Source: Patiriisocius marinus
GTDB lineage: Bacteria; Bacteroidota; Bacteroidia; Flavobacteriales; Flavobacteriaceae
Direction of reading: 5' to 3'
DNA length: 64,000 bases
Assembly (NCBI RefSeq): GCF_008974325.1
Contig: NZ_BKCG01000005.1
Coordinates: forward strand, 186,001-250,000
Shown here one piece after another: positions 15,944 to 58,531 of the stretch; position 1 is the stretch's first letter; every line of letters starts with the position of its first letter. Both the position numbers and the translations under genes were made by a program. The notes below the pieces were generated by a model. It saw only the letters and a program-made list of their open reading frames with translations. It ran no database searches and was not told the origin of the DNA.

Positions 15944-15947
15944 AATA

Positions 15948-36017: not shown

Positions 36018-36032
36018 CAAAAGTCTAATAGA

Positions 36033-36452: not shown

Positions 36453-36458
36453 TTGATA

Positions 36459-38636: not shown

Positions 38637-41600
38637 TAGAATATCCTAGAATCTTTTCGCTATCTACGGTTGGTATTAGAAAGCACTATAATCAAGACTA
38701 TTTACTGCATCGCGTAAGAACAGATTTTACCGGTAATAATGGTATTGGTAAATCGCTTATTGCAGACTTATTTCAACTTATATTTATTGGGCAAAAGAGC
38801 AAAATAAGTTTTGGTACAGAAAGTTTTAAAAACAAAGATAGGCACATACATACCATACCTTACGATACCGATGATGCCTACGTTTTTATACATATTGAGT
38901 TTAAGAAAAATGAATTTATAACCATTGGTACTAACATAGGTAACAAGCGTAGCAGACCTTTGAAATCTTTCTGGATATTAAACCAAGCCTATAATGATAA
39001 TGACAAAAAAGACCTTGAAACTTTGTCACTTAACGCCGACCAGCTATCATATAGTAAAGATTTTTTAAAAGATGGCCACTTTTTGCCTATAAGCCAACTT
39101 GCAAGACACCTTAAAAAGAATAAAAAAGGATTTCTGAAATCGTTTACGGATGTAGAAGATAAAAAGGAATACTATGAATTTCTTTATTCAAATGAGCTTT
39201 TGCCCATAAATCTTGCGATTGATGAAAATATGGACGCTTTCGCGAAAGTGATACAATCCTTTTCAAAAGCAAACTCGTTAGATACTGAAAGCGATAAGAT
39301 TTTAAAAGATTTTCTATTTGAAAATAGTTTGGACACGCTTCAGTCTAAATACCAATCAAACAAAGAGAAGCTTGAGAAACTAATAAATGAATACAATGAG
39401 CTGGATGAGGAAATACATACGATTGAATTAAAACAAGAAGTGTTAGGCGATCTTAAAGAGTTACAACAGCTTAAAAATGAATCTCAAAAAAAATACCTTA
39501 TAGCAAAATATCACATCAATTATTTTAGGTATGATAAAGTAGCAACTAACTGCACAGATACTTCCGATAAGATAAAGAAGGAAACAGATTTTATTAGTAA
39601 TTTAAAAAAAGGAGTCCCTAAAATTGAAAAACAAATAGGAATTACAAAGTCGGAATACGACACCTATTCTAATGCTCAAATATTCTTCATAAATTATAAA
39701 AATCTGTTCAATACAAGATCGAAAAAATTAGAAAGTCTTAACCAGCTTCAAAAAATGAAGCTACCTATAATAGATCAAGCAAATTTAGTCGAGATAGATA
39801 TTGATGAATATGGCGACCAGATAATCATTGAAAAGATAAATAAGCTTAATTCAGCTTTAGAAAAATACGGCACGATACATAACATAAATGAAAAAACGCT
39901 ATCGCAACGAAAAATAATAACAGAATACAAAGAGAAAAAAACCTCAGAACTTGCTGATTTGGAAGCGCTTAATCGTATTCTTTCTGCTGGAGAAGATGGC
40001 TCATTAATAGCACAAATTATAAAAAATGGAAGAAATCTTACGGTAGAAGAGGAAACGGTTCTGTTTGGATTGCTCAAAAATGTTCATTTGGAAAAACCAG
40101 ATAATCCTTCTAAAGGAACACAATTCACTAAAGATAGTTCTCTTTTAAAATATGATAATATAGAAGACGATAAAGTTAATTCTGGTTATTGGTTCAAGGT
40201 TGGTGCTCTGCGAACATTCGTACCTTATTCCAATGAGAAGCAAATATTTGCAGATACTGCTAAAATGAAAATTGCCAAAAAAAAAAAGCAGAATGCAATT
40301 GATGAGCAAATCAAGTCTATTAAAAATGAACTTGTCGAAATTTTGAAATTTGAGAAAGGAGACGTTAATAATCTGTCATCGGTTGATGAGTTAAAAAATC
40401 TCAATAAAAATTTTAAAGACTTCTCATTATACGAATCCTCAAAAATCGCAATGAGTATAGCCGAAAGTCTTTCTACAAAGATCCTTACTGATCAAAAAGA
40501 GTTGGCGCAATCATTACAGGAGTTAGAGATGCTTGAAAAGAAAATTCCAATTAAAATTACTGATGAGAAAATAGACGACCAGTTAACGTCTTATATTCAA
40601 AAAATAGCTGCTAAAAAATCCGTTTATAAAGAATTACAAAACAAACTTAAAAACTCAAAATCTACAATAACCCAAAAGGAAGATAACTTAACTACATTAA
40701 ACGAACTACTTACAGCAAAAGAAAAGGAAAGAGATGACTTAAAGAAACAATACGAAGACGCGTTAACAAATTTTAAAAAGCATTTTAAGCTCTTAAATAT
40801 TAACGATTTAAAACCTACCAACCTCGACTCGATTGATTTAGATGACCTTAGTAAACAACATAATAAGCACAAGGATAATTATATAAACGCTTATGGTAAA
40901 GCATCGTCTCAGTTTGATACTACAAAGGATGACTTAGAAGTTAAAAACCAGATGGATGATCAAAACTATTCATTTGAAGTTTTAGAATTAGTTCTTTTAG
41001 GTCCAAAAATTAAGCATACAGAAAATCTGGCACCAGCACTTAAAAAATCCAATCAAAACAGAACTAAAGTAATGCAGGCCATCACTCAGGCGATGCTCCG
41101 AATATTTAAGTTGACAAAAACAAAATATAAAGACTTTGAAAAAATAGTTGAAGATTTAAACGACTTCTTTAGTGAGCGACTTATTAGTGATAAATACAAC
41201 TTCAAGATCGACTTCACACCTAATGAGACTTTTAAAATAGATTGGATGAAAAATTTACAATCTTCCACACAAGCTGCATATTCAGAAGGAGAATTGCAAT
41301 TTTCAGACTCAGTAGAAAGTTTTGTTGAGAAGATTTTCACAGAAACAACATCCTACAACGAAAAGATTAAATTTTCAGATCTATTAGACCCGAAAACGTA
41401 TTTTGATTTGAGTACGAGGTTGCTTGACAAAGATGGAGTTGACCAAACAGGAAGCACAGGACAAAGCTATACTGCGATTGTTTTATTAGGTATTGGGAGA
41501 CTTTCTATTGTACAAAAGGAAGATAGAAAAGGTGTAAAGTTTTTAATACTTGAAGAAGTCTCAAATATGGATAAAGGTAACTTTAACACATTTCCTAACA

Positions 41601-41803
41601 TAGCAAAAGAGTTTGGATATCAAATGCTAACGATGACACCAGAACCTTACGGATCTAATGAAAATGAAGGTTGGTATTTACACCATTTAATAGAGGGCTA
41701 TGAAGACGTTAATATTAATTATGCGATGCCAAGCAGCTATTTTAAAACAAATGAATCTAGAGAAGATTTATCAGATTACTTAAAAAATATAAATAAACAA
41801 TGA
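38633..41803 (+). CDS. jetC: Wadjet/MksB-like SMC ATPase (JetC)
   Basis: 1056 aa. Walker A GNNGIGKS at residues 34-41, long coiled coils about 230-480 and 590-760 with a hinge region between, an ABC signature-like TGSTGQSYTAIVLLGIGRL near 940-955, and Walker B-like FLILEEVSNMD near 968-978. These are the head motifs of an SMC/MukB-type ATPase. It overlaps jetB by 4 bp. Family knowledge: in Wadjet the SMC motor extrudes plasmid DNA and JetD cuts it. A partial palindrome copy (39235-39248) lies within, read as DAFAKV. Divergent from the well-studied type I proteins by eye; type assignment not possible here. Confidence 0.88.
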   Translation: MIEYPRIFSLSTVGIRKHYNQDYLLHRVRTDFTGNNGIGKSLIADLFQLIFIGQKSKISFGTESFKNKDRHIHTIPYDTDDAYVFIHIEFKKNEFITIGTNIGNKRSRPLKSFWILNQAYNDNDKKDLETLSLNADQLSYSKDFLKDGHFLPISQLARHLKKNKKGFLKSFTDVEDKKEYYEFLYSNELLPINLAIDENMDAFAKVIQSFSKANSLDTESDKILKDFLFENSLDTLQSKYQSNKEKLEKLINEYNELDEEIHTIELKQEVLGDLKELQQLKNESQKKYLIAKYHINYFRYDKVATNCTDTSDKIKKETDFISNLKKGVPKIEKQIGITKSEYDTYSNAQIFFINYKNLFNTRSKKLESLNQLQKMKLPIIDQANLVEIDIDEYGDQIIIEKINKLNSALEKYGTIHNINEKTLSQRKIITEYKEKKTSELADLEALNRILSAGEDGSLIAQIIKNGRNLTVEEETVLFGLLKNVHLEKPDNPSKGTQFTKDSSLLKYDNIEDDKVNSGYWFKVGALRTFVPYSNEKQIFADTAKMKIAKKKKQNAIDEQIKSIKNELVEILKFEKGDVNNLSSVDELKNLNKNFKDFSLYESSKIAMSIAESLSTKILTDQKELAQSLQELEMLEKKIPIKITDEKIDDQLTSYIQKIAAKKSVYKELQNKLKNSKSTITQKEDNLTTLNELLTAKEKERDDLKKQYEDALTNFKKHFKLLNINDLKPTNLDSIDLDDLSKQHNKHKDNYINAYGKASSQFDTTKDDLEVKNQMDDQNYSFEVLELVLLGPKIKHTENLAPALKKSNQNRTKVMQAITQAMLRIFKLTKTKYKDFEKIVEDLNDFFSERLISDKYNFKIDFTPNETFKIDWMKNLQSSTQAAYSEGELQFSDSVESFVEKIFTETTSYNEKIKFSDLLDPKTYFDLSTRLLDKDGVDQTGSTGQSYTAIVLLGIGRLSIVQKEDRKGVKFLILEEVSNMDKGNFNTFPNIAKEFGYQMLTMTPEPYGSNENEGWYLHHLIEGYEDVNINYAMPSSYFKTNESREDLSDYLKNINKQ
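39235..39248. repeat. Interspersed palindrome, partial copy in jetC
   Basis: CGCTTTCGCGAAAG, right arm ending in GTG instead of GCG; read as AFAK. Confidence 0.75.
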
Positions 41804-42741
41804 ATTGGGTCGCACTAAAATCCCTAAATGAACTTTATAGAGATAAACAGACAAAGATTAAAGAAACTTTAATCAAGGACTCTTTGTTTCAACATTTACT
41901 GAACGATACTCAAGAGATAAAAGAAGGTTATAAAATTTATTATTCTGATGATGAAGAATTTTTTGAGATGTATGAAGAAGAGCATTTAGAGAAGTTTAAT
42001 CAATACTATGATTTTTTAGAACATAATAAACTCTTAAAACCCCAAACAAGATTTGAAGAGGCAGATATTATTGAGCTAATGGATATGAAGCGTCGTATGG
42101 ATAATGGTCAGCTATTGCCAATACGAGACCAAATTATCAAAAATGAAGATACTGTTAGAAATGTATCTTCTATGTTTTTTAAAAATGAAAAGTATTTGCT
42201 CGGAAAGAAATCGCTCATAGATGCTATAAAACAAATACTTCAAATTGAAGAACTTGCAAATGATAAAGATCAGCAGTATATGTACAAGCTACTATGCGAG
42301 AAAGCTAATCTAATAATACTTTGTGAAAATTTAGACTTTTTAAAAAGGCCATCATTACCACAAAAATATGGGTATGAATTATGGTATGCTGGCGGTAAAA
42401 ATATTGATAAATTAAAATTCACAGATAACAGAGGTTTACCAATTTATTACTCCGCAGACTGGGATTATGATGGCTTACTCATTTTTAATATGATAAAAAA
42501 AATTATCCCTAATATTAAGTTGTTATATCCAACCGCAAATCCAAAAAGCATCGTAAAGTCGGAACATAAAAGCCTATGGGCAGATATGGATAATCCTGAA
42601 AATTATTCTAATCTTGACATAAAAGACTTAGATACAAAGCATAAAACTATTTTAAAGAAATTAATAGAAAATAACCAGTGGATTACCGAAGAGGATAATA
42701 ATCTGAAAGAAATGGTATCATTAGTCTTTAATTCCAATTAA
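41800..42741 (+). CDS. jetD: Wadjet JetD/MksG-like Toprim nuclease
   Basis: 313 aa, overlapping jetC by 4 bp. The C-terminal half looks like the DUF2220/Toprim domain: an acidic residue in LIILCENLDFLKRP, then WYAGGKNI, then ADWDYDGLLIF (Asp near 222, 224 and 226), matching the E...DxD metal-binding pattern needed for DNA cleavage. The N-terminal half is helical and charged. It is shorter than many JetD proteins (about 380-400 aa), consistent with a reduced N-terminal arm. It cleaves DNA after SMC-driven extrusion by family knowledge. It converges with the gene on the minus strand (3-4 bp overlap of stops). Confidence 0.82.
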   Translation: MNWVALKSLNELYRDKQTKIKETLIKDSLFQHLLNDTQEIKEGYKIYYSDDEEFFEMYEEEHLEKFNQYYDFLEHNKLLKPQTRFEEADIIELMDMKRRMDNGQLLPIRDQIIKNEDTVRNVSSMFFKNEKYLLGKKSLIDAIKQILQIEELANDKDQQYMYKLLCEKANLIILCENLDFLKRPSLPQKYGYELWYAGGKNIDKLKFTDNRGLPIYYSADWDYDGLLIFNMIKKIIPNIKLLYPTANPKSIVKSEHKSLWADMDNPENYSNLDIKDLDTKHKTILKKLIENNQWITEEDNNLKEMVSLVFNSN

Positions 42742-43451: not shown

Positions 43452-43491
43452 AATACTTTTTTAAGACAAAGTAAAGTAATTAATTTAAAAC

Positions 43492-44028
43492 CTAAACAAA
43501 AGGATTAACCTCTGCAGGAGTACCACTTGGATATCCCCAAGCTACATATTGAGACTTCATATCATCCGTATCAAGATGTACAAAGGTTCTACCTACACCA
43601 ATCCGTTTAAATCCAACATCACGAGCTACAGAGACTAAGTGATTGCGGATAAACGTAGATTGAGCTTTGATATCTACAGCTTTACACGTTGGTATTTTAT
43701 GAGAAGAACTGGAAACACCGCCTACTTTTTTGTTGTGTGATGGGCTACGAGCTCCAGAGTTGATCCATTCAAAAATGGGATATCCTGTTCTGGCTTCCAA
43801 TTGCTGAAGCATAAAGATTAATTCCCTATCCATACAATTACCAGAACCTGGAAGATCTGGACTATCAAAAACAGATAAATCGATAGGTCGTTGATTGATT
43901 TGTACCACTCGATTTTTAATTGACTTTGTTTTTGATTTTCTGTAAATAACAAAAGCACCTATCATCAAAAGGGACAAGGTGCCTAATCCAACATAGATAT
44001 GCTGATTGTTACTTTTTACCACAGCCAC
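43492..44028 (-). CDS. Membrane-anchored M15-type peptidoglycan peptidase
   Basis: 178 aa. One N-terminal TM helix (HIYVGLGTLSLLMIGAFVIY) with a basic KSKTK tail, then a peptidase M15-like domain (about 60-178) with SSHKIPTCKAVDI and FVHLDTD, giving the His, Asp and His zinc-ligand pattern of D-Ala-D-Ala or L,D-type peptidases. Last gene of the 24-gene minus-strand cluster; overlaps the preceding gene by 20 bp. Phages use such enzymes as endolysins. The anchor would keep it in the membrane. Confidence 0.82.
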   Translation of the reverse strand: MAVVKSNNQHIYVGLGTLSLLMIGAFVIYRKSKTKSIKNRVVQINQRPIDLSVFDSPDLPGSGNCMDRELIFMLQQLEARTGYPIFEWINSGARSPSHNKKVGGVSSSSHKIPTCKAVDIKAQSTFIRNHLVSVARDVGFKRIGVGRTFVHLDTDDMKSQYVAWGYPSGTPAEVNPFV

Positions 44029-44155
44029 AACCTTTTGCTGTTTCTTTACTTTTCTTGTATCTCAAGAATAAATCTGAACTTATTTTTACAGCGCTTAGTA
44101 GTATAAATGCCCCAAAAATATAGTTCAATGTGTTATTTCCTTTGTCCACGTTCAT
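44009..44155 (-). CDS. 48-aa single-TM protein with C-terminal Cys motif
   Basis: Start chosen at the ATG at 44155 (MNVDKGNNTLNYIFG); an upstream in-frame start at 44215 would lie inside the preceding gene. One TM helix (YIFGAFILLSAVKISSDLFL), basic RYKKSKETAK, then GCGCGKK. The Cys pair could be structural or metal-binding. It overlaps neighbours on both sides (20-23 bp), as often in compact viral clusters. No homologue recognised. Confidence 0.6.
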   Translation of the reverse strand: MNVDKGNNTLNYIFGAFILLSAVKISSDLFLRYKKSKETAKGCGCGKK

Positions 44156-44474
44156 TGTTTTTTTGTTTGTTATATAATTGAATTTCAGCTTCCAATTGCT
44201 CGATGTATCTTTCAAGATCTGTTATACGATCCCTTTGTTTGGTAATCGTTTTATTCATCAGCGTATTCTTACTTTCCAGTTGTTTCAACCGTTTTTCCAT
44301 ATTTTCAGACCATAGCTTATAGTTTTCCACTACAAGGCTATTCGCTTGAACATTGAGATTGCGTATTTCGGCGCTTTTAAGACGTCTTTGCGTCCCATAT
44401 TGCAATAGCACTTCAATGAGTTTCCAAAACCCAGTAGCGCCCAGTACAATTGCAAGTATTTTAATTAAGTCCAT
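44133..44474 (-). CDS. TM plus coiled-coil protein, function unknown
   Basis: 113 aa from the ATG at 44474 (MDLIKILAIVLG); a GTG at 44489 is an alternative. One TM helix (IKILAIVLGATGFWKLIEVLL) then a long coiled coil (NMEKRLKQLESKNTLMNKTI and TDLERYIEQLEAEIQLYNKQ). A palindrome copy lies just upstream (44489-44504). The shape resembles small phage spanin- or scaffold-like membrane proteins, but there is no sequence match I can name. Confidence 0.65.
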   Translation of the reverse strand: MDLIKILAIVLGATGFWKLIEVLLQYGTQRRLKSAEIRNLNVQANSLVVENYKLWSENMEKRLKQLESKNTLMNKTITKQRDRITDLERYIEQLEAEIQLYNKQKNNERGQRK

Positions 44475-44488
44475 TTTATTTAGGTTCA

Positions 44489-44504
44489 CGCTTTCGCAAA
44501 AGCG
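44489..44504. repeat. Interspersed palindrome, intergenic copy in the viral-like cluster
   Basis: CGCTTTCGCAAAAGCG (one mismatch) between the genes ending at 44516 and starting at 44474. It sits where the start of the downstream gene would otherwise be read as GTG. Confidence 0.75.
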
Positions 44505-44515
44505 CTATTATGTTT

Positions 44516-44992
44516 TTACCTAGCAGATGCCGCTCTTTTAGCAGGTATGGGTGCTTGACGATCTGGAAAGGATCTGAATTTTAATGGCAACTCTGCCACA
44601 TAAGGATTGACATTTAAAATCACTTCATCTTCTGGACTATTAAACTTTCCAGACATAAACACTCTGCCATCATCATCTATGGCATAGAAAAAAGGTTTTC
44701 CTTCTCTACTCAATAGTGTTCCCGTGTACTCGCCTTGTTGATTCTTTACTAAAGGTGCTGGTAAACTCAATTGCCAGCCAGCAATTTCTTTTGCACCAGA
44801 TCTTGTGCGTAATCTAATGTCCTTGCCGATTACTATATTCTCATTAATCACTGCATAAATATTGCGTGCAGGAGAATGGAATAAATCTGAATTTAGATGA
44901 TTGGGTGGCACACTCAGCTCACGCTGAGTGTTTGCTATTAATCCGCCACCTTGTGCTTTTGGCACATTACTTTGATATCCTACTATACTCAT
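44516..44992 (-). CDS. Cluster protein of unknown function, beta-rich
   Basis: 158 aa starting MSIVGYQSNVPKAQGGG (the ATG at 44992 overlaps the previous stop as TAATG; a longer start at 45046 is rejected). No TM or signal peptide. Predicted mostly beta by alternating patterns (NIYAVINENIVIGKDIRLRT; GKPFFYAIDDDGRVFMSGKF). C terminus Arg/Ala-rich (PAKRAASAR). It could be a virion or baseplate-like small structural protein. Nothing recognised. Confidence 0.6.
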   Translation of the reverse strand: MSIVGYQSNVPKAQGGGLIANTQRELSVPPNHLNSDLFHSPARNIYAVINENIVIGKDIRLRTRSGAKEIAGWQLSLPAPLVKNQQGEYTGTLLSREGKPFFYAIDDDGRVFMSGKFNSPEDEVILNVNPYVAELPLKFRSFPDRQAPIPAKRAASAR

Positions 44993-45411
44993 TACTGTGC
45001 TATTATTATTCCGGTTAATATGAGTAAGCCACCGCCAAAAAACCACCGCTCCAGCTTACCTCTCTTTATTTGTTTGTGCTGTCTCTTAATGGTCAAGTTA
45101 AGTTCTTGAATATGAGATTCATCATTATCCTGAATGACCACAAGATTTTCAACCTTACGCTCCAATTTAAAAATGATGGTATCCTTTTTTTGAGTGAGAT
45201 ACTGCCATCTATAATTGCGTAATTGCAACGTATCAATAATGCTATCTTGATAAAGACTGAACTCTAATCGCTTTGCCAAATACTTTGATTGTGATAAGTC
45301 AAAACAGAAATATTTCTTATTGTTTAAGTCTTGTACTATCGGCTGTAAATCCTGAGAAATACTCGTATAAGTCCAGAGCAGACATCCTATCAATAGTATT
45401 AATTTTTTCAT
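44992..45411 (-). CDS. Signal-peptide/coiled-coil protein with C-terminal TM
   Basis: 139 aa from the ATG at 45411 (MKKLILLIGCLLWTYTSISQ). Signal peptide, a central helical/coiled-coil region (IIFKLERKVENLVVIQDNDE) and a last hydrophobic segment (WFFGGGLLILTGIIIAQ). Its 5' part overlaps the preceding gene (45317-45667) by about 95 bp in another frame. That overlap and a TM-coiled-coil partner recall inner/outer spanin pairs, but the outer member is not a short lipoprotein here. Confidence 0.62.
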   Translation of the reverse strand: MKKLILLIGCLLWTYTSISQDLQPIVQDLNNKKYFCFDLSQSKYLAKRLEFSLYQDSIIDTLQLRNYRWQYLTQKKDTIIFKLERKVENLVVIQDNDESHIQELNLTIKRQHKQIKRGKLERWFFGGGLLILTGIIIAQ

Positions 45412-45667
45412 CCAGTGCATTTTGTAAATTTTGAATCATTTTATGGCTTAAAACTATTTTACCAGTTAAGCTATCGGTTTGCTTTTTAAGCTTTTTAATT
45501 TCTTCATCAAGGCTTACGTTTTTAACCGTAAGCAGTTCGTTTTCCTTTTCAAGTTTTTGAATAGTTTCATTGTTCAAAGCTTCCTCTTGCGGAATGATGT
45601 AAAAGATGAGCAGGACAATAATTCCTGCAATCCAAAGCACTAATAAAAAAGGTTTCCAAAACTTCAT
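45317..45667 (-). CDS. TM plus coiled-coil protein (spanin-like)
   Basis: 116 aa from the ATG at 45667 (MKFWKPFLLVLWIAGIIVLL). One TM helix followed by a heptad-like coiled coil (IQKLEKENELLTVKNVSLDE and EIKKLKKQTDSLTGKIVL). Start at 45667 overlaps the previous stop (TAATG), so translation is coupled. The next gene starts inside its 3' end. Periplasmic coiled coil with an inner-membrane anchor is the i-spanin layout (inference). Confidence 0.65.
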   Translation of the reverse strand: MKFWKPFLLVLWIAGIIVLLIFYIIPQEEALNNETIQKLEKENELLTVKNVSLDEEIKKLKKQTDSLTGKIVLSHKMIQNLQNALDEKINTIDRMSALDLYEYFSGFTADSTRLKQ

Positions 45668-45990
45668 TACTCCTTGGGTTTCGTTTGAAATAATTTGTTT
45701 AAAAATTTCTCCAATAAGAGTTTGTGAAACACCAGCGCAAAAGCAAACGATTGCAACAAACATTCAATCATTTTAATCTGATAACCTCTTATGAAGTACA
45801 AAGCGACTCCGTAAATAATGCCAATGATGAGGACACGATAGCGAGTGGCTATTTTCAGCTTAAAAACTTCATAAAAGAAGTTGGTCGAGCGGTAATGGTT
45901 GAGACCATAAGCAATGACAATGAATGTGAAAATATAAGCCCAATCCAGGCTGTTTAAATAATTGGAGATGTGTGATAAAATTTCTATCAT
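45667..45990 (-). CDS. Small multi-TM protein, holin-like
   Basis: 107 aa. Three hydrophobic segments (WAYIFTFIVIAYGLNHY; VLIIGIIYGVALYFIRG; CLLQSFAFALVFHKLLL) and a Lys-rich C terminus (NKLFQTKPKE). Size and topology fit phage holins, next to a spanin-like pair and lytic-enzyme genes. Not recognised at sequence level. It overlaps its upstream neighbour by 4 bp. Confidence 0.6.
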   Translation of the reverse strand: MIEILSHISNYLNSLDWAYIFTFIVIAYGLNHYRSTNFFYEVFKLKIATRYRVLIIGIIYGVALYFIRGYQIKMIECLLQSFAFALVFHKLLLEKFLNKLFQTKPKE

Positions 45991-46235
45991 TTTAATTGTT
46001 TTTTTAGGGTTTCTTTTATGCTTTTAATATCTACTTGCAAAGCCGCTATTTGATGATTTGGAAATAGATTCTTGGTCAAATGTGCCACGACAACTATTGT
46101 TGCTCCAGAAGCCAACAGAGCAAGCACAATTTTGGTTAATGTTTGATTGGTAAGAGTTACAGTAACTTCGGTCTTGATACCGTCTTTATCTACCAGACCA
46201 TCTATTAAATCTTTAATGCTTCGCTTTTCTGGCAT
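45987..46235 (-). CDS. Single-TM cluster protein
   Basis: 82 aa. Charged N terminus (MPEKRSIKDLIDGLVDKDG), one TM helix (KIVLALLASGATIVVVAHL), then a short helix ending SIKETLKKQLK. It overlaps both neighbours (4 and 23 bp). Function unknown. Confidence 0.6.
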   Translation of the reverse strand: MPEKRSIKDLIDGLVDKDGIKTEVTVTLTNQTLTKIVLALLASGATIVVVAHLTKNLFPNHQIAALQVDIKSIKETLKKQLK

Positions 46236-46716
46236 CTTTTTGTTGCTTTTTTATCTTACCCATATTGCGTTCTTTGAACAGCTGTTCTGATACTTCTTTT
46301 ACTTTGTAAAGTCTTAAAACACGTTCTTCAGTAACAGCATCAAATTCATCTGTGATTAAGCCTTTTGCAGCACCGTGATTTTTTAATAGGTAGACGCGTA
46401 GTTGATAGACACGTTCTCCTTTGCTTCCTAATTTTAATGGAAAATCATCATTGGGTTCTGGCAATACTTCGGGCTTTATGACGATTGCTTTCTTTTCTTT
46501 TTCTAAAGGAACTACAGGCTTCATTTCAACTACAGAAACTTCTTTTTTCTGCGGAATAGGTTTCTCAACTTTTACAGGTTTGGATTCCTCGACGATTGTA
46601 AATTCTGCATCCTCAGCCGTTTCTTCTTTATCTCTAAAGAGGACATAGCCCAACAATCCTAATCCCAAAAGCCCTCCAGCGATAATCAATCCCTTTTGCA
46701 TTGTTTGTTCGCTCAT
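46213..46716 (-). CDS. TM-anchored peptidoglycan-binding-like protein 1
   Basis: 167 aa. TM helix at the N terminus (QKGLIIAGGLLGLGLLGYVL), a charged, Pro/Val-rich linker, then a C-terminal region (about 95-145) that resembles PG_binding_1: FPLKLGSKGERVYQLRVYLL with TDEFDAVTEERVLRLY. C terminus very basic (KIKKQQKDARKAKH). Paralogous in layout to the next protein. Start overlaps the previous stop (TAATG). Confidence 0.7.
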   Translation of the reverse strand: MSEQTMQKGLIIAGGLLGLGLLGYVLFRDKEETAEDAEFTIVEESKPVKVEKPIPQKKEVSVVEMKPVVPLEKEKKAIVIKPEVLPEPNDDFPLKLGSKGERVYQLRVYLLKNHGAAKGLITDEFDAVTEERVLRLYKVKEVSEQLFKERNMGKIKKQQKDARKAKH

Positions 46717-47219
46717 TATTTCCCGAGACTTGACAGCGCTTTTCGCATTCCTGCGATATCGGCTTGAGTGAATACTGTTTTCTTTAATCGCTTTTGTGCA
46801 GCTCTCGATGTTTTGGGACCAAATTGCCCATCAACACCATCACGTTTTGGTCCCGTTTTGCCTAAATCTTCTTTATAGATTTTAAGGTAACGCTGTAGTA
46901 TTTTTACATCAGGATGACGGCTTCCGTATTTTATGGGATAGCCTGTTTTGGTAATATTTGGCTTCGTACTTGAACTCGATGATGTTGAAGAACTCGGAAT
47001 AAAAGGTGGTGTTTGATAGCTGGAGGAACTACTTGGAACTGTTGTGATTCCTGATGAAGATGCGCTCGCTAATTCAGCTTCTTTTTTCTCCTTTTTCTTG
47101 GTCATAAAATAATACGCGGTGGCTGCTCCTACGAGTACCACGATAACACCACCTACCACTAAAAGGTCTTTGTTTTTAGCCATAAATGATGGATTTGTTG
47201 CTGTTGATTTCTGTTTCAT
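46716..47219 (-). CDS. TM-anchored peptidoglycan-binding protein 2
   Basis: 167 aa. N-terminal TM helix (LLVVGGVIVVLVGAATAYYF), Lys-rich stop-transfer, a Ser/Pro-rich linker (about 55-90), then a clear PG_binding_1 domain (KYGSRHPDVKILQRYLKIY and GVDGQFGPKTSRAAQKRL). It probably tethers the machine to peptidoglycan. Its arrangement (TM, flexible linker, PG domain) is shared with its neighbour at 46213-46716. Confidence 0.8.
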   Translation of the reverse strand: MKQKSTATNPSFMAKNKDLLVVGGVIVVLVGAATAYYFMTKKKEKKEAELASASSSGITTVPSSSSSYQTPPFIPSSSTSSSSSTKPNITKTGYPIKYGSRHPDVKILQRYLKIYKEDLGKTGPKRDGVDGQFGPKTSRAAQKRLKKTVFTQADIAGMRKALSSLGK

Positions 47220-47228: not shown

Positions 47229-47750
47229 TTATGATTGGTAATTGGGAAGGCGTTGCACATAATTTGAGACGTATTCCTTCATTTCGCTTTGGCTTAAAAA
47301 GCTATTCAAATGTTGCCACATATCTTTTTTATATAGCTGATAATAAGCTTTGGAGAGACTGGCGATTTGTGTTTTATCACGCAATTTTTTACCGAAAACA
47401 TCTTTGATAGCCTCTTCGTCGTCATTAAAAGTTCCTTTTGCATCCTTAATGATTTTAGCCAGTTTCTTAGCCGAAGCATCATCCAATACTTGAATATTTT
47501 TTGGCGCTACCCATTTCTGGACATCTGTGAGATAGTTCATATCAAATGGACTGTTCCAGTTCGGCTCTTGTTTGGTAGTTCCTACATTTCCAGTAGTGAC
47601 TTGCACGCCAGTTCCTATAGATGTGGTTGTTGTGGATTGCAGTGCTTGTTGCTTTGTACGCTTTCGCGAAAGCGTAACAAAAACACCTATCCCGATAACG
47701 CCAAGTCCCGCGCCACCTATCATCCACCATCCTGTTTTTGAGATTTCCAT
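47229..47750 (-). CDS. Annexin-repeat-like membrane protein A
   Basis: 173 aa. N-terminal TM (WWMIGGAGLGVIGIGVFVTL), then a Thr/Ser linker, then a helical domain (about 70-173) with NDDEEAIKDVFGKKLRDKTQ and LSKAYYQLYKKDMWQHLNSF. This fits the annexin repeat pattern (DEE.I.....R...Q...L..AY...Y..DL...L). The palindrome at 47657-47676 is read here as LSRKR just after the TM helix. Paralogous to 47752-48240 over the same domain. Function unknown; annexin relation is a hypothesis. Confidence 0.65.
   Translation of the reverse strand: MEISKTGWWMIGGAGLGVIGIGVFVTLSRKRTKQQALQSTTTTSIGTGVQVTTGNVGTTKQEPNWNSPFDMNYLTDVQKWVAPKNIQVLDDASAKKLAKIIKDAKGTFNDDEEAIKDVFGKKLRDKTQIASLSKAYYQLYKKDMWQHLNSFLSQSEMKEYVSNYVQRLPNYQS
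47657..47676. repeat. Interspersed palindrome, 20-bp copy in the annexin-like gene
   Basis: TACGCTTTCGCGAAAGCGTA, perfect over 20 bp, read in the LSRKR frame and supplying the basic stop-transfer residues after a TM helix. Confidence 0.88.
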
Positions 47751-47751
47751 A

Positions 47752-48240
47752 TTAAGCTGTTCTGTAATTAGGTAGCGCCTTCACGATGTTGAGCACTATG
47801 GTTATTTCTTCCTTGTCAAAGCGGTCTTTGAGCGTGTCAATTAGGTTTTTTGAATAGGTTTCTTGGTAGGCTTTTGCTACTTGTGACACCTGAACTTTAT
47901 CTTTCATCTTGCGGAAGACTCCGTAGACTTGTTCTTCATCATCGCCACCTTGATACCAGCTTCCCCAAGCTTTGTGAATCTGGTCTGCATAGCGAGAAGC
48001 GGTACTTGTTTTTAATACCAATACTTCGCGATTTACAGTTTGCAATACCTTATTCAAAAAATGAATATCAAAAGCATTTTGTGAGGTCAGTCCACTTGAA
48101 ATTGGTTGAATTTGCGCCTGAATAGCAGTCAGTAATTTGCTGGTGCGTACGTCACGACTGCGCTTCCTCATTGAGAAAAACGTTGTCCCTATAAACAGAG
48201 TTCCTACACTTGCGCCTATGATTTTATACGTCATACTCAT
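47752..48240 (-). CDS. Annexin-repeat-like membrane protein B
   Basis: 162 aa. N-terminal TM (YKIIGASVGTLFIGTTFFSM) and a basic RKRSRD tail, then a helical domain with DDEEQVYGVFRKMKDKVQVS and VAKAYQETYSKNLIDTLKDR, matching the same annexin-like pattern as the neighbouring gene, and a shared LPNYR/LPNYQ C terminus. Overlaps its upstream neighbour by 4 bp. Likely arose by tandem duplication. Confidence 0.65.
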   Translation of the reverse strand: MSMTYKIIGASVGTLFIGTTFFSMRKRSRDVRTSKLLTAIQAQIQPISSGLTSQNAFDIHFLNKVLQTVNREVLVLKTSTASRYADQIHKAWGSWYQGGDDEEQVYGVFRKMKDKVQVSQVAKAYQETYSKNLIDTLKDRFDKEEITIVLNIVKALPNYRTA

Positions 48241-48683
48241 TTGCCCAACAGTTTTAAGCCACGACCTGCAGGTGTGAGCATTGCTAAATCCGACACATCT
48301 GCATTCTTTGCTGAATTTTTAAGAAGTACGATAACACCAACCAATACGACTGCCAGTATTACAGGAACTCCAATGGATAATACTTTTGTCAAATTTTTTC
48401 CCAAGCCAAAAATATTACCACCAATTTCAGATAAATCGGCAATGGTTCTGGTGGCCATATTGGAAACATCAAGATTGTTTTGATTGAGCCATTTGTTAAA
48501 GTTGGGACTCGTCGTACAAGATGCTGCACCATTAGATTTCCAAGTAATGAGCCATATCATTTTTGCATTCTCTTGACCTAATTCGCTTTTTAATTTTGCG
48601 AAATAGCTTGTCCAGAAGTCACACGGATCGTCTGCTTCTGGAACTAAAAAAATGCGGTTATCTATGTTTACTTGTATCGCCAT
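48237..48683 (-). CDS. Cluster protein with C-terminal TM
   Basis: 148 aa. A soluble N-terminal domain (MAIQVNIDNRIFLVPEADD) with two Cys, a middle helix, and one TM (VLSIGVPVILAVVLVGVIVL) near residue 110, then a short basic C terminus (GRGLKLLGK). Unlike its neighbours the TM is C-terminal. Not recognised. Overlaps neighbours by 4 and 1 bp. Confidence 0.62.
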   Translation of the reverse strand: MAIQVNIDNRIFLVPEADDPCDFWTSYFAKLKSELGQENAKMIWLITWKSNGAASCTTSPNFNKWLNQNNLDVSNMATRTIADLSEIGGNIFGLGKNLTKVLSIGVPVILAVVLVGVIVLLKNSAKNADVSDLAMLTPAGRGLKLLGK

Positions 48684-48871
48684 TAATTACTTCTGAAAAT
48701 GGTATTACTGTGTTTCTTGCTATCGGTTTTACTGAAATCGTTTTGTTCTAAAAATTGCTGAAGGCGAGCTTTAAGTTGCGCTTCTTTTCTCAAGGCGGTA
48801 CGCTTATCATAATTGATATACAGCTGCCTGCCCAACCAAAAACCAACGCCTAATGTCAAAATCGTTTTCAT
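48683..48871 (-). CDS. 62-aa protein with N-terminal TM-like segment
   Basis: Short protein with a weak N-terminal hydrophobic segment (MKTILTLGVGFWLGRQLYI) and a charged helical rest (RTALRKEAQLKARLQQFLEQ). It is coupled to both neighbours (stop-start contact at 48683 and 48871/48872). Probably a small membrane-associated cluster component. Confidence 0.55.
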   Translation of the reverse strand: MKTILTLGVGFWLGRQLYINYDKRTALRKEAQLKARLQQFLEQNDFSKTDSKKHSNTIFRSN

Positions 48872-49366
48872 CTACTTTCTCTTGTAAATATTATGCTCGG
48901 GAATGTCTAATGCTCTGAGCCATTCTGCTACCTCAAATCCTGGACTATCTTCATCTGCTTTGGCAGGAATTTCATTAAAACCTGCGATAATGATGTCTGG
49001 AAAGCGCAGTATATAGAACTTTACAATCGCTTCAAGTGCCGATTTTTGTTCATCGGTACGTGTGTCTTTATCCCAAGCTTCTTTAAGTGTTCTACCTCCT
49101 ACATAAGCAATGTGTTTGGCGATTCCCGTGATACCATTTTGTCCGTGAGAGATGCCCCATAAATCAATAGTTGTTGGGCTGTCCTCACTAATGATGGTTT
49201 GTAACACACCATCTTGAAGCACGAGGTAATCTATACCTGGACGATTCCATCCAAAACCGCCTTTATCTTTTGGTAGCGTGTGCTGATTGATAATGATTTC
49301 CTTGCCAAAGTCTTTAGCTTCGCTGGTGTCTGTACTTTGTATAATGAGATAATCTACTTTTTGCAT
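48872..49366 (-). CDS. Amidase_2-like protein with lost zinc ligands
   Basis: 164 aa. The fold signature of N-acetylmuramoyl-L-alanine amidases (PGRP/T7-lysozyme family) is visible in order: IIQSTDTSEAKDF, GIDYLVLQDG, WGISHGQNGITGI, DTRTDEQKSALEAIV and IIAGFNEIPAKADEDSPGF. In active enzymes the first segment has a His (IHxSAT) and the last GHRD; here the positions read Q and F/N, and the GYHY His is Asp. So the zinc site looks broken and the protein may only bind peptidoglycan. No signal peptide. Confidence 0.72.
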   Translation of the reverse strand: MQKVDYLIIQSTDTSEAKDFGKEIIINQHTLPKDKGGFGWNRPGIDYLVLQDGVLQTIISEDSPTTIDLWGISHGQNGITGIAKHIAYVGGRTLKEAWDKDTRTDEQKSALEAIVKFYILRFPDIIIAGFNEIPAKADEDSPGFEVAEWLRALDIPEHNIYKRK

Positions 49367-49376: not shown

Positions 49377-49814
49377 TTAAGAGTTTATAGCTGATAAGCG
49401 TCTAAAGCCCAATAAGCGATAGACAGGATATTTCTTGATGTTGACTTGATTATTCTGATTGCCACCCAAGACATAGATGTGTTTTTTGTCTTCGGAATAG
49501 CTAATAAAAAGACCTACGTGACCTTTCCAACTGGACTTTTTATGACGCCAGAAGATGACCACATCATTAAGTTTTGGTTTGTTGATTTCGGTACCAACTT
49601 GCAGCCAAGAACGCGCAGTAAGTTTATTACTTCGTTCTACTTTCGTCTTGAGCGCTACCCAATTGATAAAGGCAGAACACCAAGCGGTTTCGTCTGTAGA
49701 GACCCAAGTATGACCTATTTCTTTGAAGTAATTGAGAACAATGGGATTATGTTGATAGCCTACAATTTCGGTTACACCGTATTGGCTTAAGGCTATATTA
49801 ATAAGTTGTGACAT
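49377..49814 (-). CDS. TIGR02594-type cysteine peptidoglycan hydrolase
   Basis: 145 aa. Matches the TIGR02594/NlpC-P60-like pattern: ETAWCSAFINWVALKT with the catalytic Cys, ARSWLQVG, NDVVIFWRHKKSSWKGHVGL with the His, and VLGGNQNNQVNIKKYPVYRL with Asn. Common in Bacteroidota prophages and T6SS-like loci as a cell-wall hydrolase. No signal peptide. Overlaps the propeller gene by 17 bp. Confidence 0.85.
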   Translation of the reverse strand: MSQLINIALSQYGVTEIVGYQHNPIVLNYFKEIGHTWVSTDETAWCSAFINWVALKTKVERSNKLTARSWLQVGTEINKPKLNDVVIFWRHKKSSWKGHVGLFISYSEDKKHIYVLGGNQNNQVNIKKYPVYRLLGFRRLSAINS

Positions 49815-51387
49815 TGGGTGACTCGTCTTTAGGGTTATCGAGCCACGATACTGGAATGCCCTTACTCATTTGGACACCAGTAGATATTCTTGATTTTTCG
49901 GGAAGCATATTATACATCTCGATTTGATTGTAATAAATTAAAAAGCTGACTTGCTGTAATGGATTAATTTTAAAACACCAGGTCACGTGTCCATCTATTA
50001 AGTTTCCATCAAAGTCAAATACTTCTGAAACATTTGCAAAGTTTTGAGGACTCTGACTATTACTCAACGAGATGGTTTTACAGATTTCGGTACCAGTGAC
50101 GGACTTTTCAGTAATCTGTAGTGCATTGATTCTGTCTTCTCCAGAAGCGACCAGCTTGACGTGACCAACCATCGCAGGATTATGCTGGAAGTCTTCACGG
50201 TCTTCATAATATTCTTCGTTTACTGTTACGGTAGGACCAGATTGTAATCCCGAAATGCTAACCGTATCATCTGCAGAGTTGCTCACGCCTATAATTTCTT
50301 CCTTAGAACTAATAGCTAACCCAAGTCCAAAACTTTCAGTTTTAATTGTATCTATTATTTGATGCTTTGGACTAATTCTACAAAACGTTTGATCGCCTCG
50401 ATTCCCCACGTACATTAATCCATTATGCGGATTATAAGCAATAGCTACAGGATCTTTACCTACGCTTAATTTAGTGATGGCTCCAAATCTTACGGTGTCT
50501 AAAACCGAAACAGAATTTGAGTTATTCAGTACCATATACATATTCTTGGTCACTGGATGGAACTGAAACGAAACAATATCTGCCACTACAGAACCTACGC
50601 TTCCTTTTTGATTGCCTTGAAGATCATACACATTGATGGCGCCATCCACAATATTGTGAATGTATAAATCACCTGAATCTGTATCAACTCCAAGTGTTCT
50701 GGCTCCAGGTACTAAAGGCAAATTATTTACTCTACGATTGATGCAAATTTTAGAGATTGTTCCCGAAACTAAATTTGCTGTATAATAACATTGATCCACT
50801 GGATTATAAACGATATCTACTGGACGATTCCCAACAGATTCTCTTCGTAAAATTGTAAAGTCTTGATTTATAAAAACGACTTCATTTGAGACTGAGCAAG
50901 CTATCGCAACTACTCCGTATTCAACACTATTAGTAGATGTATTTACAGCTAAAGCAACTGGACTAACACTGCCTGGAACGCTAAAAATTGTTGAATTAGA
51001 AGCTCTTCTTTCTCCAACTCCATAACCACTTCCAGCTTGAGAAGTACCTTGTGATAAGTCAATAGTCGTAACAAGTTCTCCTGAAGGGTTAACCACCGAG
51101 ACAGAATCTCCTAATTGATTCACTACGTAAAATAAGTCTGTAACAAGATTATAGACCAGCTCTTGTGGTTGCTTATCTACGACTACACTTTTTGTGCCTT
51201 CTTCATTTATAAACATAGGATCAGTAAGCGGTGTGCAAGCAATTGCACCCCAAAGACATACTTTTCTTATGTCCTTAGTATGGTTTGTAACCGTTACTTG
51301 TACAACATCATTCTCTTTTTGAAGTTGCGCGTAGAAACGTTTTAAACTTGCCTGCTTGTCTAACCAAGTATATGTTGCTCTACTCAT
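49798..51387 (-). CDS. YVTN-type beta-propeller protein nested in a jelly-roll-like domain
   Basis: 529 aa, the largest cluster protein. Residues about 60-395 are YVTN-type propeller repeats (KDPVAIAYNPHNGLMYVGNR, NRPVDIVYNPVDQCYYT and others). The flanks, about 1-55 (VQVTVTNHTKDIRKVCLWGA) and 395-529 (FQHNPAMVGHVKLVASGED to FLIYYNQIE), together look like one beta-sandwich split by the propeller. The C-terminal flank resembles the central domain of the 303-aa protein at 54753-55664, including SPQNF. No signal peptide or TM. Could be a capsid or spike protein (inference) with a receptor-binding propeller. Confidence 0.78.
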   Translation of the reverse strand: MSRATYTWLDKQASLKRFYAQLQKENDVVQVTVTNHTKDIRKVCLWGAIACTPLTDPMFINEEGTKSVVVDKQPQELVYNLVTDLFYVVNQLGDSVSVVNPSGELVTTIDLSQGTSQAGSGYGVGERRASNSTIFSVPGSVSPVALAVNTSTNSVEYGVVAIACSVSNEVVFINQDFTILRRESVGNRPVDIVYNPVDQCYYTANLVSGTISKICINRRVNNLPLVPGARTLGVDTDSGDLYIHNIVDGAINVYDLQGNQKGSVGSVVADIVSFQFHPVTKNMYMVLNNSNSVSVLDTVRFGAITKLSVGKDPVAIAYNPHNGLMYVGNRGDQTFCRISPKHQIIDTIKTESFGLGLAISSKEEIIGVSNSADDTVSISGLQSGPTVTVNEEYYEDREDFQHNPAMVGHVKLVASGEDRINALQITEKSVTGTEICKTISLSNSQSPQNFANVSEVFDFDGNLIDGHVTWCFKINPLQQVSFLIYYNQIEMYNMLPEKSRISTGVQMSKGIPVSWLDNPKDESPNVTTY

Positions 51388-52138
51388 TGGCTCTATAATT
51401 TTCTATAAAATTGATAACATCTTTGGTACGCTCAATTTGGGATGCACCAACCATTTCTGGGTTTTTCCCGAACACTTTTGTTACTGCATACACCGCCTCA
51501 ATGGTTGGGAAACCATAATCGAGGTATTGTTTCATTCCGCATAAATCTGCGGTAGTTTGACTGCGTGTATTTAAGAACCAATGACAGCCTTCGTGCGCTA
51601 AAATTGCAACGCGAATAGGAATGGTGTACGACTTAAACAAACGTTGCGATATTTGAACTCTCGGCATTTTGCGATGCGTTCTCGCTGGTGTAATAAGCTC
51701 TGCACCAAAAGGATCAGTTATTTTATCTAAATATTGAAACAGAAATTCGTTGTCGGTACTTTCATAAAAACCAGGAGGTACGTAACCTGCTTTTTGCGCA
51801 AACTGAATCGCAAATTCTAAAAAACGATGTTGGTCATCAGTCGCCCAAACTGCCAGCGCTGGCATCTTTTCTATTTTAACATTGACGATTTCAAATGCAT
51901 CATCATCTACTTCGTTTTTATCAAATACTTCCATTTCCAGTACTTCTGGAGAAACTGGCAGTGCGATCACAAATTCTCGTTTTGAGTTCGCTTTCGCGAA
52001 AGCGGCTTTTCTTCTAAAATAATAGCTATTAGGATGCTCAGGATCATACACACGAATTCCCAACTCAAAAGGCATCAAGGCCTTGATGGTCAGTTTAATC
52101 TGAAAGCGTTCTCTATTTGATGGAATGGTTGTTATCAC
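51380..52138 (-). CDS. Putative zinc metalloprotease (HExxH)
   Basis: 252 aa. N-terminal beta-rich domain (about 1-100) and a helical metalloprotease-like domain with LAHEGCHWFL (HExxH, about 188-192) followed by TTADLCGMKQYLDYGFP, a possible third-ligand region. The palindrome copy at 51989-52004 encodes KAAFAKANSK in the N-terminal domain. No signal peptide, so it is probably cytoplasmic or virion-internal. Could process precursors of the cluster (inference). Confidence 0.7.
   Translation of the reverse strand: MITTIPSNRERFQIKLTIKALMPFELGIRVYDPEHPNSYYFRRKAAFAKANSKREFVIALPVSPEVLEMEVFDKNEVDDDAFEIVNVKIEKMPALAVWATDDQHRFLEFAIQFAQKAGYVPPGFYESTDNEFLFQYLDKITDPFGAELITPARTHRKMPRVQISQRLFKSYTIPIRVAILAHEGCHWFLNTRSQTTADLCGMKQYLDYGFPTIEAVYAVTKVFGKNPEMVGASQIERTKDVINFIENYRANE
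51989..52004. repeat. Interspersed palindrome, copy in the HExxH gene
   Basis: Perfect CGCTTTCGCGAAAGCG, read as AFAKA. Confidence 0.88.
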
Positions 52139-52608
52139 TGAGGATATTGTTGGTGTTGCTTATTTTTAGAACTACTCATTACTGCAAGTCCAATGACTCC
52201 GACAACTACGACGCCACCTAAAACATAAACGATGGTAGGAATCCCTTTTTTCTCTTCTTCTGGAACTTCTGGAGCTCCTAAGTCTACAGAGAAGTCCGAA
52301 GGCAATTCTGTGTTAGCGCCATATCCATCTAAAGGTTTTGGTGTAGTAAACGAATCGATTACTTGACCTATCGCTGTAGCGCCACCAGCTTCTTTATAAA
52401 TCTGACCTACATCTTTAAAGAACTTCGTGCGCTTTGCTTTGCGCTCTATTCGTTTTGGAGCAGATCTTCTTATCGTTCTTCTGGCGATACGTTTTGCTTT
52501 TCGCTTGGCACGTCTTGCTTTACGTTTCTTTTTATTTCCAAAAAAGTCATCATAATCGTCATCTTGTAGATGTCGACTTAAAATGCTTTCTGTTTCTCCT
52601 AAAATCAT
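52135..52608 (-). CDS. Acidic-tag, Arg/Lys-rich protein with C-terminal TM (1)
   Basis: 157 aa. Acidic N-terminal motif (LQDDDYDDFFG), an Arg/Lys-rich stretch (KKKRKARRAKRKAKRIARRT, about 26-60), a helix, a Pro/Glu linker and one TM (GIPTIVYVLGGVVVVGVIGL) near the C terminus. Same layout as 52820-53380. The basic region is suited to nucleic-acid contact, the TM to a membrane. Unrecognised family. Confidence 0.7.
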   Translation of the reverse strand: MILGETESILSRHLQDDDYDDFFGNKKKRKARRAKRKAKRIARRTIRRSAPKRIERKAKRTKFFKDVGQIYKEAGGATAIGQVIDSFTTPKPLDGYGANTELPSDFSVDLGAPEVPEEEKKGIPTIVYVLGGVVVVGVIGLAVMSSSKNKQHQQYPQ

Positions 52609-52617: not shown

Positions 52618-52845
52618 TTAGATAATTTGCATTATTCTTAAAGTCGAGGCTCCAGGATTGTAGGTAATTTTCTTATAACCTTTACCCACAAAAGGATAGC
52701 CCTTTGCTTCGCCAGGAAATAAAACCACTCCATTAACCAAAGCTTTTCCTTCTCCCACGTTTTTAATTGAGGCGCTTAAAAAACCATCACTGATTTCTCC
52801 TGAGACCGTTGTGTCAATTTCATTTACTTGTGCTAATATGTCCAT
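52618..52845 (-). CDS. Small beta-rich cluster protein
   Basis: 75 aa from the ATG at 52845 (MDILAQVNEIDTTVSG; a longer start at 52896 would lie inside the previous gene). No TM. Beta-strand pattern GFLSASIKNVGEGKALVNGV and TYNPGASTLRIMQII. Could be a minor structural subunit. Overlaps the preceding gene by 26 bp. Confidence 0.6.
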   Translation of the reverse strand: MDILAQVNEIDTTVSGEISDGFLSASIKNVGEGKALVNGVVLFPGEAKGYPFVGKGYKKITYNPGASTLRIMQII

Positions 52846-53380
52846 TTTGTAATTTTTTGTTTTGAATGAATTTATAAATCCCAAACCCTGTTGCACCTAC
52901 AACTCCCACGACAGCAATTACTTTAACCACTTTGCTCACCTTACTGTCAGATTTTATTGCCTTTTTACTGGCTTCTACTTGTGCAGTTTGAAGTTGTCTG
53001 ACTTCGGCTTTTGCAATAGCAGATAATGTTGTTTTGACAACCGCTGGATTTGATTTTTTAATCAAGTGACTTATGGGTGTCTTTGTTTTGACTGGTGGTT
53101 TTTTAGTCTTGATGACCGCTTTTTTTGGTTGTACCGTTTTCTTACGAATCACAGGAATACTCTTCACTCGAATAGGCGGTAATTTCATAGGACGACCACG
53201 AACGACTCTGGGGCGAATTCGTACAGGTGGTCTGCTTAATTTTGGTTTAGAAGACCGTCTGCGTTTTAATAGTTTTCGAGTACGACGTTTCTTTCTGCGA
53301 CGACGACGTATGCCTCCAAAATTATCGTAGTCTTCGTCCTGATAAACATCATAATCAGTAAGTGCATAGGTATTTGTCAT
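52820..53380 (-). CDS. Acidic-tag, Arg/Lys-rich protein with C-terminal TM (2)
   Basis: 186 aa. N terminus with VYQDEDYDNFGGI, then RRRRKKRRTRKLLKRRR (about 26-45) and a long Lys/Pro-rich stretch to about 110, a helix, and one TM (VVKVIAVVGVVGATGFGIYK) with a basic C terminus. Strongly basic overall. Paralogous in layout, not clearly in sequence, to 52135-52608. Possible DNA-condensing or DNA-membrane linker protein. Confidence 0.7.
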   Translation of the reverse strand: MTNTYALTDYDVYQDEDYDNFGGIRRRRRKKRRTRKLLKRRRSSKPKLSRPPVRIRPRVVRGRPMKLPPIRVKSIPVIRKKTVQPKKAVIKTKKPPVKTKTPISHLIKKSNPAVVKTTLSAIAKAEVRQLQTAQVEASKKAIKSDSKVSKVVKVIAVVGVVGATGFGIYKFIQNKKLQNGHISTSK

Positions 53381-53381: not shown

Positions 53382-54020
53382 TTATCTCGGCATTGGCATC
53401 GGTGGCTGTCCGTAAGGCATTGGTGGACGTCCCGATTTCATTAATACTACCGCTCCGATACCTAAAACGACCACACCGCCGCCTATCATCAGCATCATAT
53501 TGGTTTTCTTTTTGGCTGCTTCGGCTTTCTTCTTTTCTTCCTCACGACGACGCGCTTCCTCTTGTCTGCGTCTTTCTTCTGCCTCACGACGTTTGCGTTC
53601 TTGCTCTTCTCGCATACGCTGCATACGCATTTCCATATCTCTTTTGGCCGCAGCAGCTTGGGCAGATGCTCTTGCTTGTGCAGCTGCTTGAGCTGCGCCA
53701 CTATTAGATGAACCTCCACGTTTCTTTTTCTTAAAGAGTCCACCTATAATGCCTACAGCACCTTTGGCAATCGCTCCCCAAAATTGGTCGTTCTCTCGTG
53801 ATGAAAAGCGAGCGATTAAATTTTCTAACGCTTTCGCGAAAGCGTAATCTCCATCTTTTAATAGGTCAACCACTTCATTAACGAGTTGCTCTTTTGATGG
53901 TTTACCTTGAAAGAACACATTGCTTTTAGCAAGTAATTCTTGAACAGGTTTTGGATAATTGAGAACCAAATAGGTAAGGTTGTCAATCGCCTGATTGTAT
54001 TGTGATTGTTTATTTGACAT
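53382..54020 (-). CDS. Coiled-coil membrane protein with Arg/Glu repeat region
   Basis: 212 aa. A helical N-terminal domain (YLVLNYPKPVQELLAKSNVF), a Gly-rich hydrophobic stretch (FWGAIAKGAVGIIGGLFKKK, about 80-100), an Ala/Arg/Glu-rich coiled coil (about 100-165) and one TM (MLMIGGGVVVLGIGAVVLMK), then a Pro/Met-rich C terminus. The palindrome copy (53828-53845) encodes DYAFAKALEN in the N-terminal domain. Function unknown. Confidence 0.7.
   Translation of the reverse strand: MSNKQSQYNQAIDNLTYLVLNYPKPVQELLAKSNVFFQGKPSKEQLVNEVVDLLKDGDYAFAKALENLIARFSSRENDQFWGAIAKGAVGIIGGLFKKKKRGGSSNSGAAQAAAQARASAQAAAAKRDMEMRMQRMREEQERKRREAEERRRQEEARRREEEKKKAEAAKKKTNMMLMIGGGVVVLGIGAVVLMKSGRPPMPYGQPPMPMPR
53828..53845. 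repeat. Interspersed palindrome, copy in the coiled-coil gene
   Basis: Perfect ACGCTTTCGCGAAAGCGT, in frame as AFAKA. Confidence 0.88.
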
Positions 54021-55664: not shown

Positions 55665-55737
55665 TTGTTTTCATTGTTTGCCTGTTCAAAAAACAGGATG
55701 ATACTTTTGTTTTGGTGTCCAAAAGTGTCTCTAAACA

Positions 55738-58078: not shown

Positions 58079-58158
58079 GTTAGCTTAACATGTGCATCAC
58101 CTTCATGGATTATGATAGGTTCGCTATTTATATATTATCAATATTATTCCCTCTAGTA

Positions 58159-58518: not shown

Positions 58519-58531
58519 AACATTTTAGTTT

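Follow-up and report, generated by a model that had tools for sequence, protein, structure and literature searches.

Do two small adjoining genes of the flavobacterium Patiriisocius marinus encode annexins, and if so, what would membrane-anchored annexins be doing there? The genes lie in a window of 64,000 nucleotides, the whole stretch of DNA that was analysed (contig NZ_BKCG01000005.1 of assembly GCF_008974325.1, positions 186,001 to 250,000), and all positions given here are those of the window. A sequence-only reading had described the products as tandem annexin-repeat-like proteins with transmembrane (TM) anchors and had proposed that they shape membranes in a particle or envelope machine. 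Both open reading frames were found where it had placed them, on the minus strand, and the strings on which it relied, DDEEAIKDVF and DDEEQVYGVF as well as AYYQLYKKDMWQHL and AYQETYSKNLIDTL, are exact in the two proteins (anxA and anxB, Table 1). Each protein has an N-terminal hydrophobic stretch, then a K/R-rich segment and then one C-terminal helical domain. They are paralogs, as had been claimed: when anxA was searched against its own genome, the matches were anxA itself and anxB (34% identity, E 6e-13). "Tandem" here means two adjoining single-repeat genes, not two repeats within one chain; with one repeat in anxA and one in anxB, the four-repeat core of annexins is absent. The claimed membrane anchor was called by hydropathy as a TM helix in anxB, and a less hydrophobic stretch of anxA lies at the aligned position.

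Table 1. Positions of the features in the window, with the evidence for each
Feature	Position	Strand	Description	Basis
JetABCD/Wadjet-like operon	36682..42741	+	outside the core cassette	PADLOC JetB model E 4.3e-4 only
peptidase M15	43492..44028	-	TM-anchored; last cassette gene	Peptidase_M15_3 47.1 bits; phrog_894 endolysin 2.3e-14
68-aa protein	44009..44215	-	single TM	
118-aa protein	44133..44489	-	TM/coiled coil	phrog_2658 E 3e-6
cassette protein	44516..45046	-	start uncertain	kept in most relatives
142-aa protein	44992..45420	-	signal-peptide-like start	other frame than Rz-like gene, overlap 45317-45420
Rz-like spanin candidate	45317..45763	-	TM and coiled coil	phrog_739 Rz-like spanin E 3.4e-5
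107-aa protein	45667..45990	-	hydrophobic, multi-TM; holin-like by look only	no family match
82-aa protein	45987..46235	-	single TM	
o167b	46213..46716	-	TM protein	related to PG-binding protein of two-repeat elements (matches L087, L137)
PGB	46716..47219	-	TM protein, PG_binding_1-like domain	Pfam 20.8 bits, E 4.5e-4, below cutoff
anxB	47229..47750	-	173 aa; N-terminal TM and single annexin repeat	ORF, profile evidence, orthologs
annexin repeat of anxB	47253..47480	-	about residues 91-166	alignment to anxA; limits inferred
TM helix of anxB	47667..47723	-	residues 10-28; K/R-rich C-terminal side	hydropathy
anxA	47752..48240	-	162 aa; N-terminal hydrophobic anchor and single annexin repeat	ORF, profiles, AF2, Foldseek
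annexin repeat of anxA	47779..48009	-	residues 78-154, five helices	AF2
hydrophobic N-terminal anchor of anxA	48166..48222	-	about residues 7-25	aligns with anxB TM; below hydropathy threshold
148-aa protein	48237..48683	-	C-terminal TM	relatives, hydropathy
62-aa small protein	48683..48871	-		relatives
amidase	48872..49366	-		phrog_822 amidase E 1.1e-16
CHAP/NlpC-like cell-wall hydrolase	49377..49814	-		phrog_1259 baseplate hub and tail lysozyme E 5e-32
529-aa propeller-like protein	49798..51387	-	35-97% identity among relatives	weak beta-propeller matches
252-aa protein	51380..52138	-	HExxH-type motif HEGCH	motif also in orthologs; SprT-like E 0.12 only
157-aa K/R-rich protein	52135..52608	-	C-terminal TM	relatives, hydropathy
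92-aa protein	52618..52896	-		relatives
186-aa very basic protein	52820..53380	-	net +42; C-terminal TM	relatives, hydropathy
212-aa protein	53382..54020	-	C-terminal TM	relatives, hydropathy
213-aa zinc-ribbon-like protein	54010..54651	-	C-terminal TM	zinc-ribbon match below cutoff; hydropathy
303-aa beta-rich protein	54753..55664	-	acidic N-tail, Arg-rich C-tail; candidate shell protein	77-100% identity among relatives
56-aa ORF	55738..55908	-	single TM; first cassette gene	
conserved leader	55909..56034	-	sharp 5' end of cassette	no Rfam family matched
large serine recombinase	56277..57941	-	adjoins cassette	Pfam Resolvase/Recombinase

Taken singly, the two proteins do not identify themselves. 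Against the Pfam annexin model (PF00191, cutoff 25), anxA matched part of the model at 15.9 bits and anxB gave no match, and single-sequence PHROG scans of both were not decisive for annexin identity. Scanning 300 genomes of the same family with the Pfam model says little by itself, since many chance matches score equally and none passes the cutoff (143 of the 300 genomes have a match at E<=1, 0 over the cutoff). Such results would suit a convergence of unrelated small helical bundles on an annexin-like pattern. Searches with profiles tell against it. A profile of four sequences (orthologs and paralogs) had annexins as 54 of its 56 PDB matches at E<=10, with a best E of 3e-10. Such E-values sum what the 4-8 repeats of a eukaryotic annexin contribute; a repeat matched singly scores weakly, and the best single repeat within that best match has an independent E of 0.076. 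The same alignment, reversed as a control, matched zero annexins. With a profile of 19 sequences, all 22 PDB matches at E<=0.1 were annexins.

The predicted fold of anxA is the five-helix annexin repeat that the sequence-only reading had called for. The AF2 model places helices at residues 78-90, 102-110, 115-129, 133-140 and 143-154; pLDDT is 82-93 over the blocks of the domain, except for one block of 64 and the C-terminal one of 77, and the first 51 residues carry no confidence. The best 50 PDB matches in Foldseek were all annexin chains, including fusion constructs bearing annexin A2. Their E-values (0.01-0.1) are modest because the match covers one of four repeats.

Intermediate homologs provided a further link. 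A scan of named genomes and IMG/VR brought up TM proteins in which two repeats are fused and GTD motifs are present: L087 (Bacteroidia MAG SW_35), L093 and L101 (both IMG/VR contigs). L093 and L087 score 32.8 and 25.0 bits against the Pfam annexin model. A profile of the two-repeat proteins had 49 matches at E<=0.01, every one an annexin; it also matched the single-repeat profile at E 1.5e-10 and recovered anxA from the P. marinus genome at E 1.7e-8. The proposed comparison with Pfam was thus borne out in part: neither protein passes the cutoff alone, but the two-repeat homologs reach it, and the profile search against PDB matches annexins. With the profiles and these intermediates, annexin homology is settled as far as sequence allows, and the view that anxA and anxB are true relatives of animal and plant annexins is supported. 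Convergence is very improbable, since the PDB profiles, the reversed control, the fold, Foldseek and the links through the two-repeat profile all agree on annexin.

The canonical type II calcium site consists of a GxGT loop and an acidic residue about 39 residues later. Its ligand positions were read by eye off alignments in which Lkdfl of the profile is paired with LKYEL of annexin VI, which defines the position of the acidic ligand. All 10 anxB rows have F there (LNSFL) and all 9 anxA rows have R (LKDRF); by eye, the acidic ligand is absent from 19 of 19 aligned sequences. The loop is degenerate as well, reading TFND in anxB and QGGD in anxA. Among the two-repeat homologs, L087 and L093 have E at the ligand position of each repeat, L101 at that of the second repeat only. 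Because the position holds F or R in anxA and anxB, calcium-dependent membrane binding through the canonical site appears unlikely for them.

The annexin genes belong to a syntenic cassette of about 12.5 kb and 25 genes with sharp ends, which encodes three peptidoglycan (PG) hydrolases, a spanin-like pair and many single-TM proteins. Gene order is kept in more than 12 loci and runs, from 5' to 3', through the 56-aa TM ORF, the 303-aa protein, basic and single-TM proteins, the HEGCH protein, the propeller-like protein, the CHAP-like hydrolase, the amidase, anxA, anxB, the PG-binding TM protein, small TM proteins, the overlapping Rz-like and signal-peptide genes and M15. Two loci (L074 and L088) lack the 5' part, one (L076) is cut by a contig end, and in some others single genes are missing or too diverged to detect. 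The 142-aa product that overlaps the Rz-like gene would be the outer spanin. The 56-aa ORF is flanked on either side by TTTAGAGA (about 55710-55960 in the window), a string that is unchanged in every aligned locus and is possibly a regulatory repeat. Few cassette products are as conserved as the 303-aa protein. Its model has nine strands and a poor pLDDT (55.6), gave no significant fold match and, at this low confidence, neither matches nor excludes a jelly roll; a role as shell or capsid protein is a guess. By eye, the ends of the 529-aa protein have the short strings TN and SPQNF in common with it.

The cassette is mobile and horizontally exchanged. Homology begins at the common leader block and ends at the stop codon of the M15 gene, and the flanks are unrelated between lineages, with some close relatives having flanks in common too. 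Of three cassettes in the genome G421, two are 97% identical over 12.2 kb and have unrelated flanks. The annexin pair was found at convincing scores in 9 of 399 sampled family genomes, with a weak partial match in a tenth (G243); in the phylum sample, it was found in the P. marinus genome only, besides weak partial matches. Identity to a genome of the same genus, G006, is 99.2% over 31946-44503 and 93.6% from 44567, a step that suggests a recombination breakpoint within the cassette at 44503-44567. Searches of INPHARED phages and PLSDB plasmids with queries among the beta-rich protein, anxA and the ATPase described below gave no relative, and neither did scans of IMG/VR with the beta-rich protein and the ATPase.

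In relatives, the cassette forms part of a wider set of genes. An ATPase, a candidate for a packaging ATPase of the FtsK/HerA type, lies directly upstream of it in L078, L082, L083 and L086; the L078 protein scores 29.7 bits against Pfam Zot and 23.3 bits against Pox_A32, both above cutoff. Of 16 cassette genomes tested, some of them counted twice, 13 have this ATPase, usually directly upstream of the cassette. In G421, three ATPase copies accompany the three cassettes (contig C1, 47886, 112035 and 818812), two of the three with an in-frame stop. The ATPase follows a DnaA-C-like gene in G006 and G046, with a DarB-like giant further up, and G006 has a serine recombinase beside host division genes (some of these names were given by eye). 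In P. marinus itself, the ATPase module, 94% identical, is on contig C4 and the cassette on C5, so the idea of a contiguous whole element in this genome was dropped. The C4 module (8288-17615, L122) carries A32/Zot-type ATPase, DnaA-C-like and 337-aa genes. The recombinase that adjoins the cassette is 25% identical to the one beside host genes in G006 and plausibly belongs to the element. Its neighbours include a small Ras-like GTPase and two proteins that look like coiled coils (58090-59825, by eye). A Jet/Wadjet-like condensin operon stands beside some related cassettes and is absent beside others; the operon in the window was not confirmed as a full Wadjet system, as only JetB matched among the PADLOC models. 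To the left of the cassette is a large metal-efflux region (221-36482, Cus/Czc-like by eye), and metal-efflux-like genes also flank the cassette in L092.

The elements with two-repeat annexins have homologs of a DarB-like giant, the annexin, a PG-binding protein and an amidase in common with the cassette elements, and PGB matches the PG-binding protein of L101. Serine recombinases related to the one in the window adjoin them. The 303-aa protein does not match their candidate shell protein (hhalign probability 0.5%), for which a comparison with PDB gave no relative. An IMG/VR contig with a two-repeat annexin, L098, also encodes a MACPF-looking protein (9089-10705, by eye).

We favour a reading to which we give about an even chance: anxA and anxB would be annexins of a mobile, membrane-bearing, provirus-like element of Flavobacteriaceae, placed in its structural and lysis cassette. 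That the cassette has a particle function is itself about evenly balanced. The two products would be single-repeat annexins held to the membrane by the N-terminal anchor, and would most likely act as a pair, given their paralogy, their adjacency and the related elements that fuse both repeats in one TM protein. Their repeats would face the cytoplasm at the inner membrane, where they may bind or bend the bilayer and so help to assemble a particle with a membrane, or an entry apparatus, which would carry the PG hydrolases too. As the acidic ligand is absent, we expect binding to be independent of calcium at the canonical site. The topology comes from charge counts, with small margins for some proteins: the annexins, M15 and PGB are K/R-rich on the domain side, which puts the repeats, the M15 domain and the PG-binding domain in the cytoplasm and the Rz-like coiled coil on the opposite side. 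Cytoplasmic hydrolase and annexin domains would suit a membrane particle assembled inside the cell and would be odd for ordinary wall enzymes. The setting in a particle or envelope machine that had been proposed from the sequence fits the PG hydrolases, the spanin-like and single-TM proteins and the A32/Zot-type ATPase upstream in relatives, and membrane shaping by the annexins is plausible.

Zot and A32 ATPases belong to the same superfamily as DNA pumps. This kinship, together with the Pfam match of the ATPase, could also indicate an integrative element that is not viral, whose cassette builds an envelope-spanning apparatus for DNA transfer or cell invasion in which the annexins tether or fuse membranes. 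The cargo beside the cassette (defence genes and, by eye, metal-efflux genes) and a capsid that is so far only a candidate would agree with this, as would the multidomain giants of the polyvalent kind, which are known from both phages and conjugative elements (PMC5512222). However, the three lysis-type hydrolases, like the overlapping spanin-like pair, suggest lysis of the cell, and no obvious conjugation genes were seen by eye in the flanks read. We consider a transfer or invasion apparatus rather unlikely.

Another possible explanation, which we hold to be improbable, is that a lytic weapon or release system has been domesticated: a particle without a genome, kept in defence islands, in which annexins aid membrane attack or release. 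The cassette does move with sharp ends between unrelated flanks, adjoins Jet-like, Fic, AbiE and restriction-type genes, and is apart from the ATPase module in P. marinus. The frequent presence of the ATPase in cassette genomes, usually directly upstream, argues against it.

Returning to the provirus-like element, we suggest tentatively, at a little short of even probability, that Bacteroidota harbour a family of temperate viruses or virus-like elements that lack a tail, bear a membrane and use annexins as structural membrane proteins, a family not represented in the phage and plasmid collections searched. If this is true, annexins may have travelled on mobile elements. Bacterial annexins have so far been catalogued without a known role in the literature searched, and a conserved cassette with hydrolases, a spanin-like pair and, in relatives, an ATPase upstream offers a testable one. 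If the cassette makes particles, a common family of marine bacteria would be home to a membrane-bearing element of a new type, with a bearing on how annexins spread between domains of life.

Among known systems, the tailless membrane-containing phages PRD1, FLiP and their relatives have, like this element, an A32-type ATPase, many single-TM proteins, PG hydrolases and lysis genes. In contrast to them, the jelly-roll capsid is only a candidate here, and the element is larger, carries defence cargo and has no match in the phage collection. Annexin domains were also described, in 2012, in toxins delivered by PVC/eCIS, where the authors propose that they help in breaching membranes (PMC3482391). 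A single annexin domain and a phage-like delivery context are common to those toxins and to anxA and anxB, which differ in having no fused toxin domain; no contractile-injection genes were noticed in the cassette. With eukaryotic annexins, which have four or eight repeats, anxA and anxB share the five-helix repeat fold and the sequence pattern of helices A-D; unlike them, they have one repeat per chain, a membrane anchor and no acidic calcium ligand.

As proteins, anxA and anxB are of a known kind. Annexins in a bacterium are not new, since an earlier study (PMC3894181, 2014) already reports about thirty bacterial homologues, some with predicted TM regions, and pairs of short annexins encoded side by side in Kordia algicida, Aquimarina agarilytica and Flavobacteriaceae HQM9. 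Those annexins resemble anxA and anxB in being short, single-repeat products of adjacent genes in Flavobacteriaceae. In A. agarilytica ZC1, orthologs of the pair are 93% and 86% identical. The A. agarilytica genome (G839, locus L079; contigs C39, C45 and C21) carries, besides these orthologs, a diverged second annexin pair and two other annexin-like matches; because it has two pairs, the published pair is not assignable to a locus. The literature searched, which covered few subscription journals, gave no report of the gene neighbourhood described above. In the parts consulted, the 2014 study treats adjacency only; what is added here, and appears unreported, is the cassette with its constant gene order, its movement between genomes and its connection with a provirus-like element.
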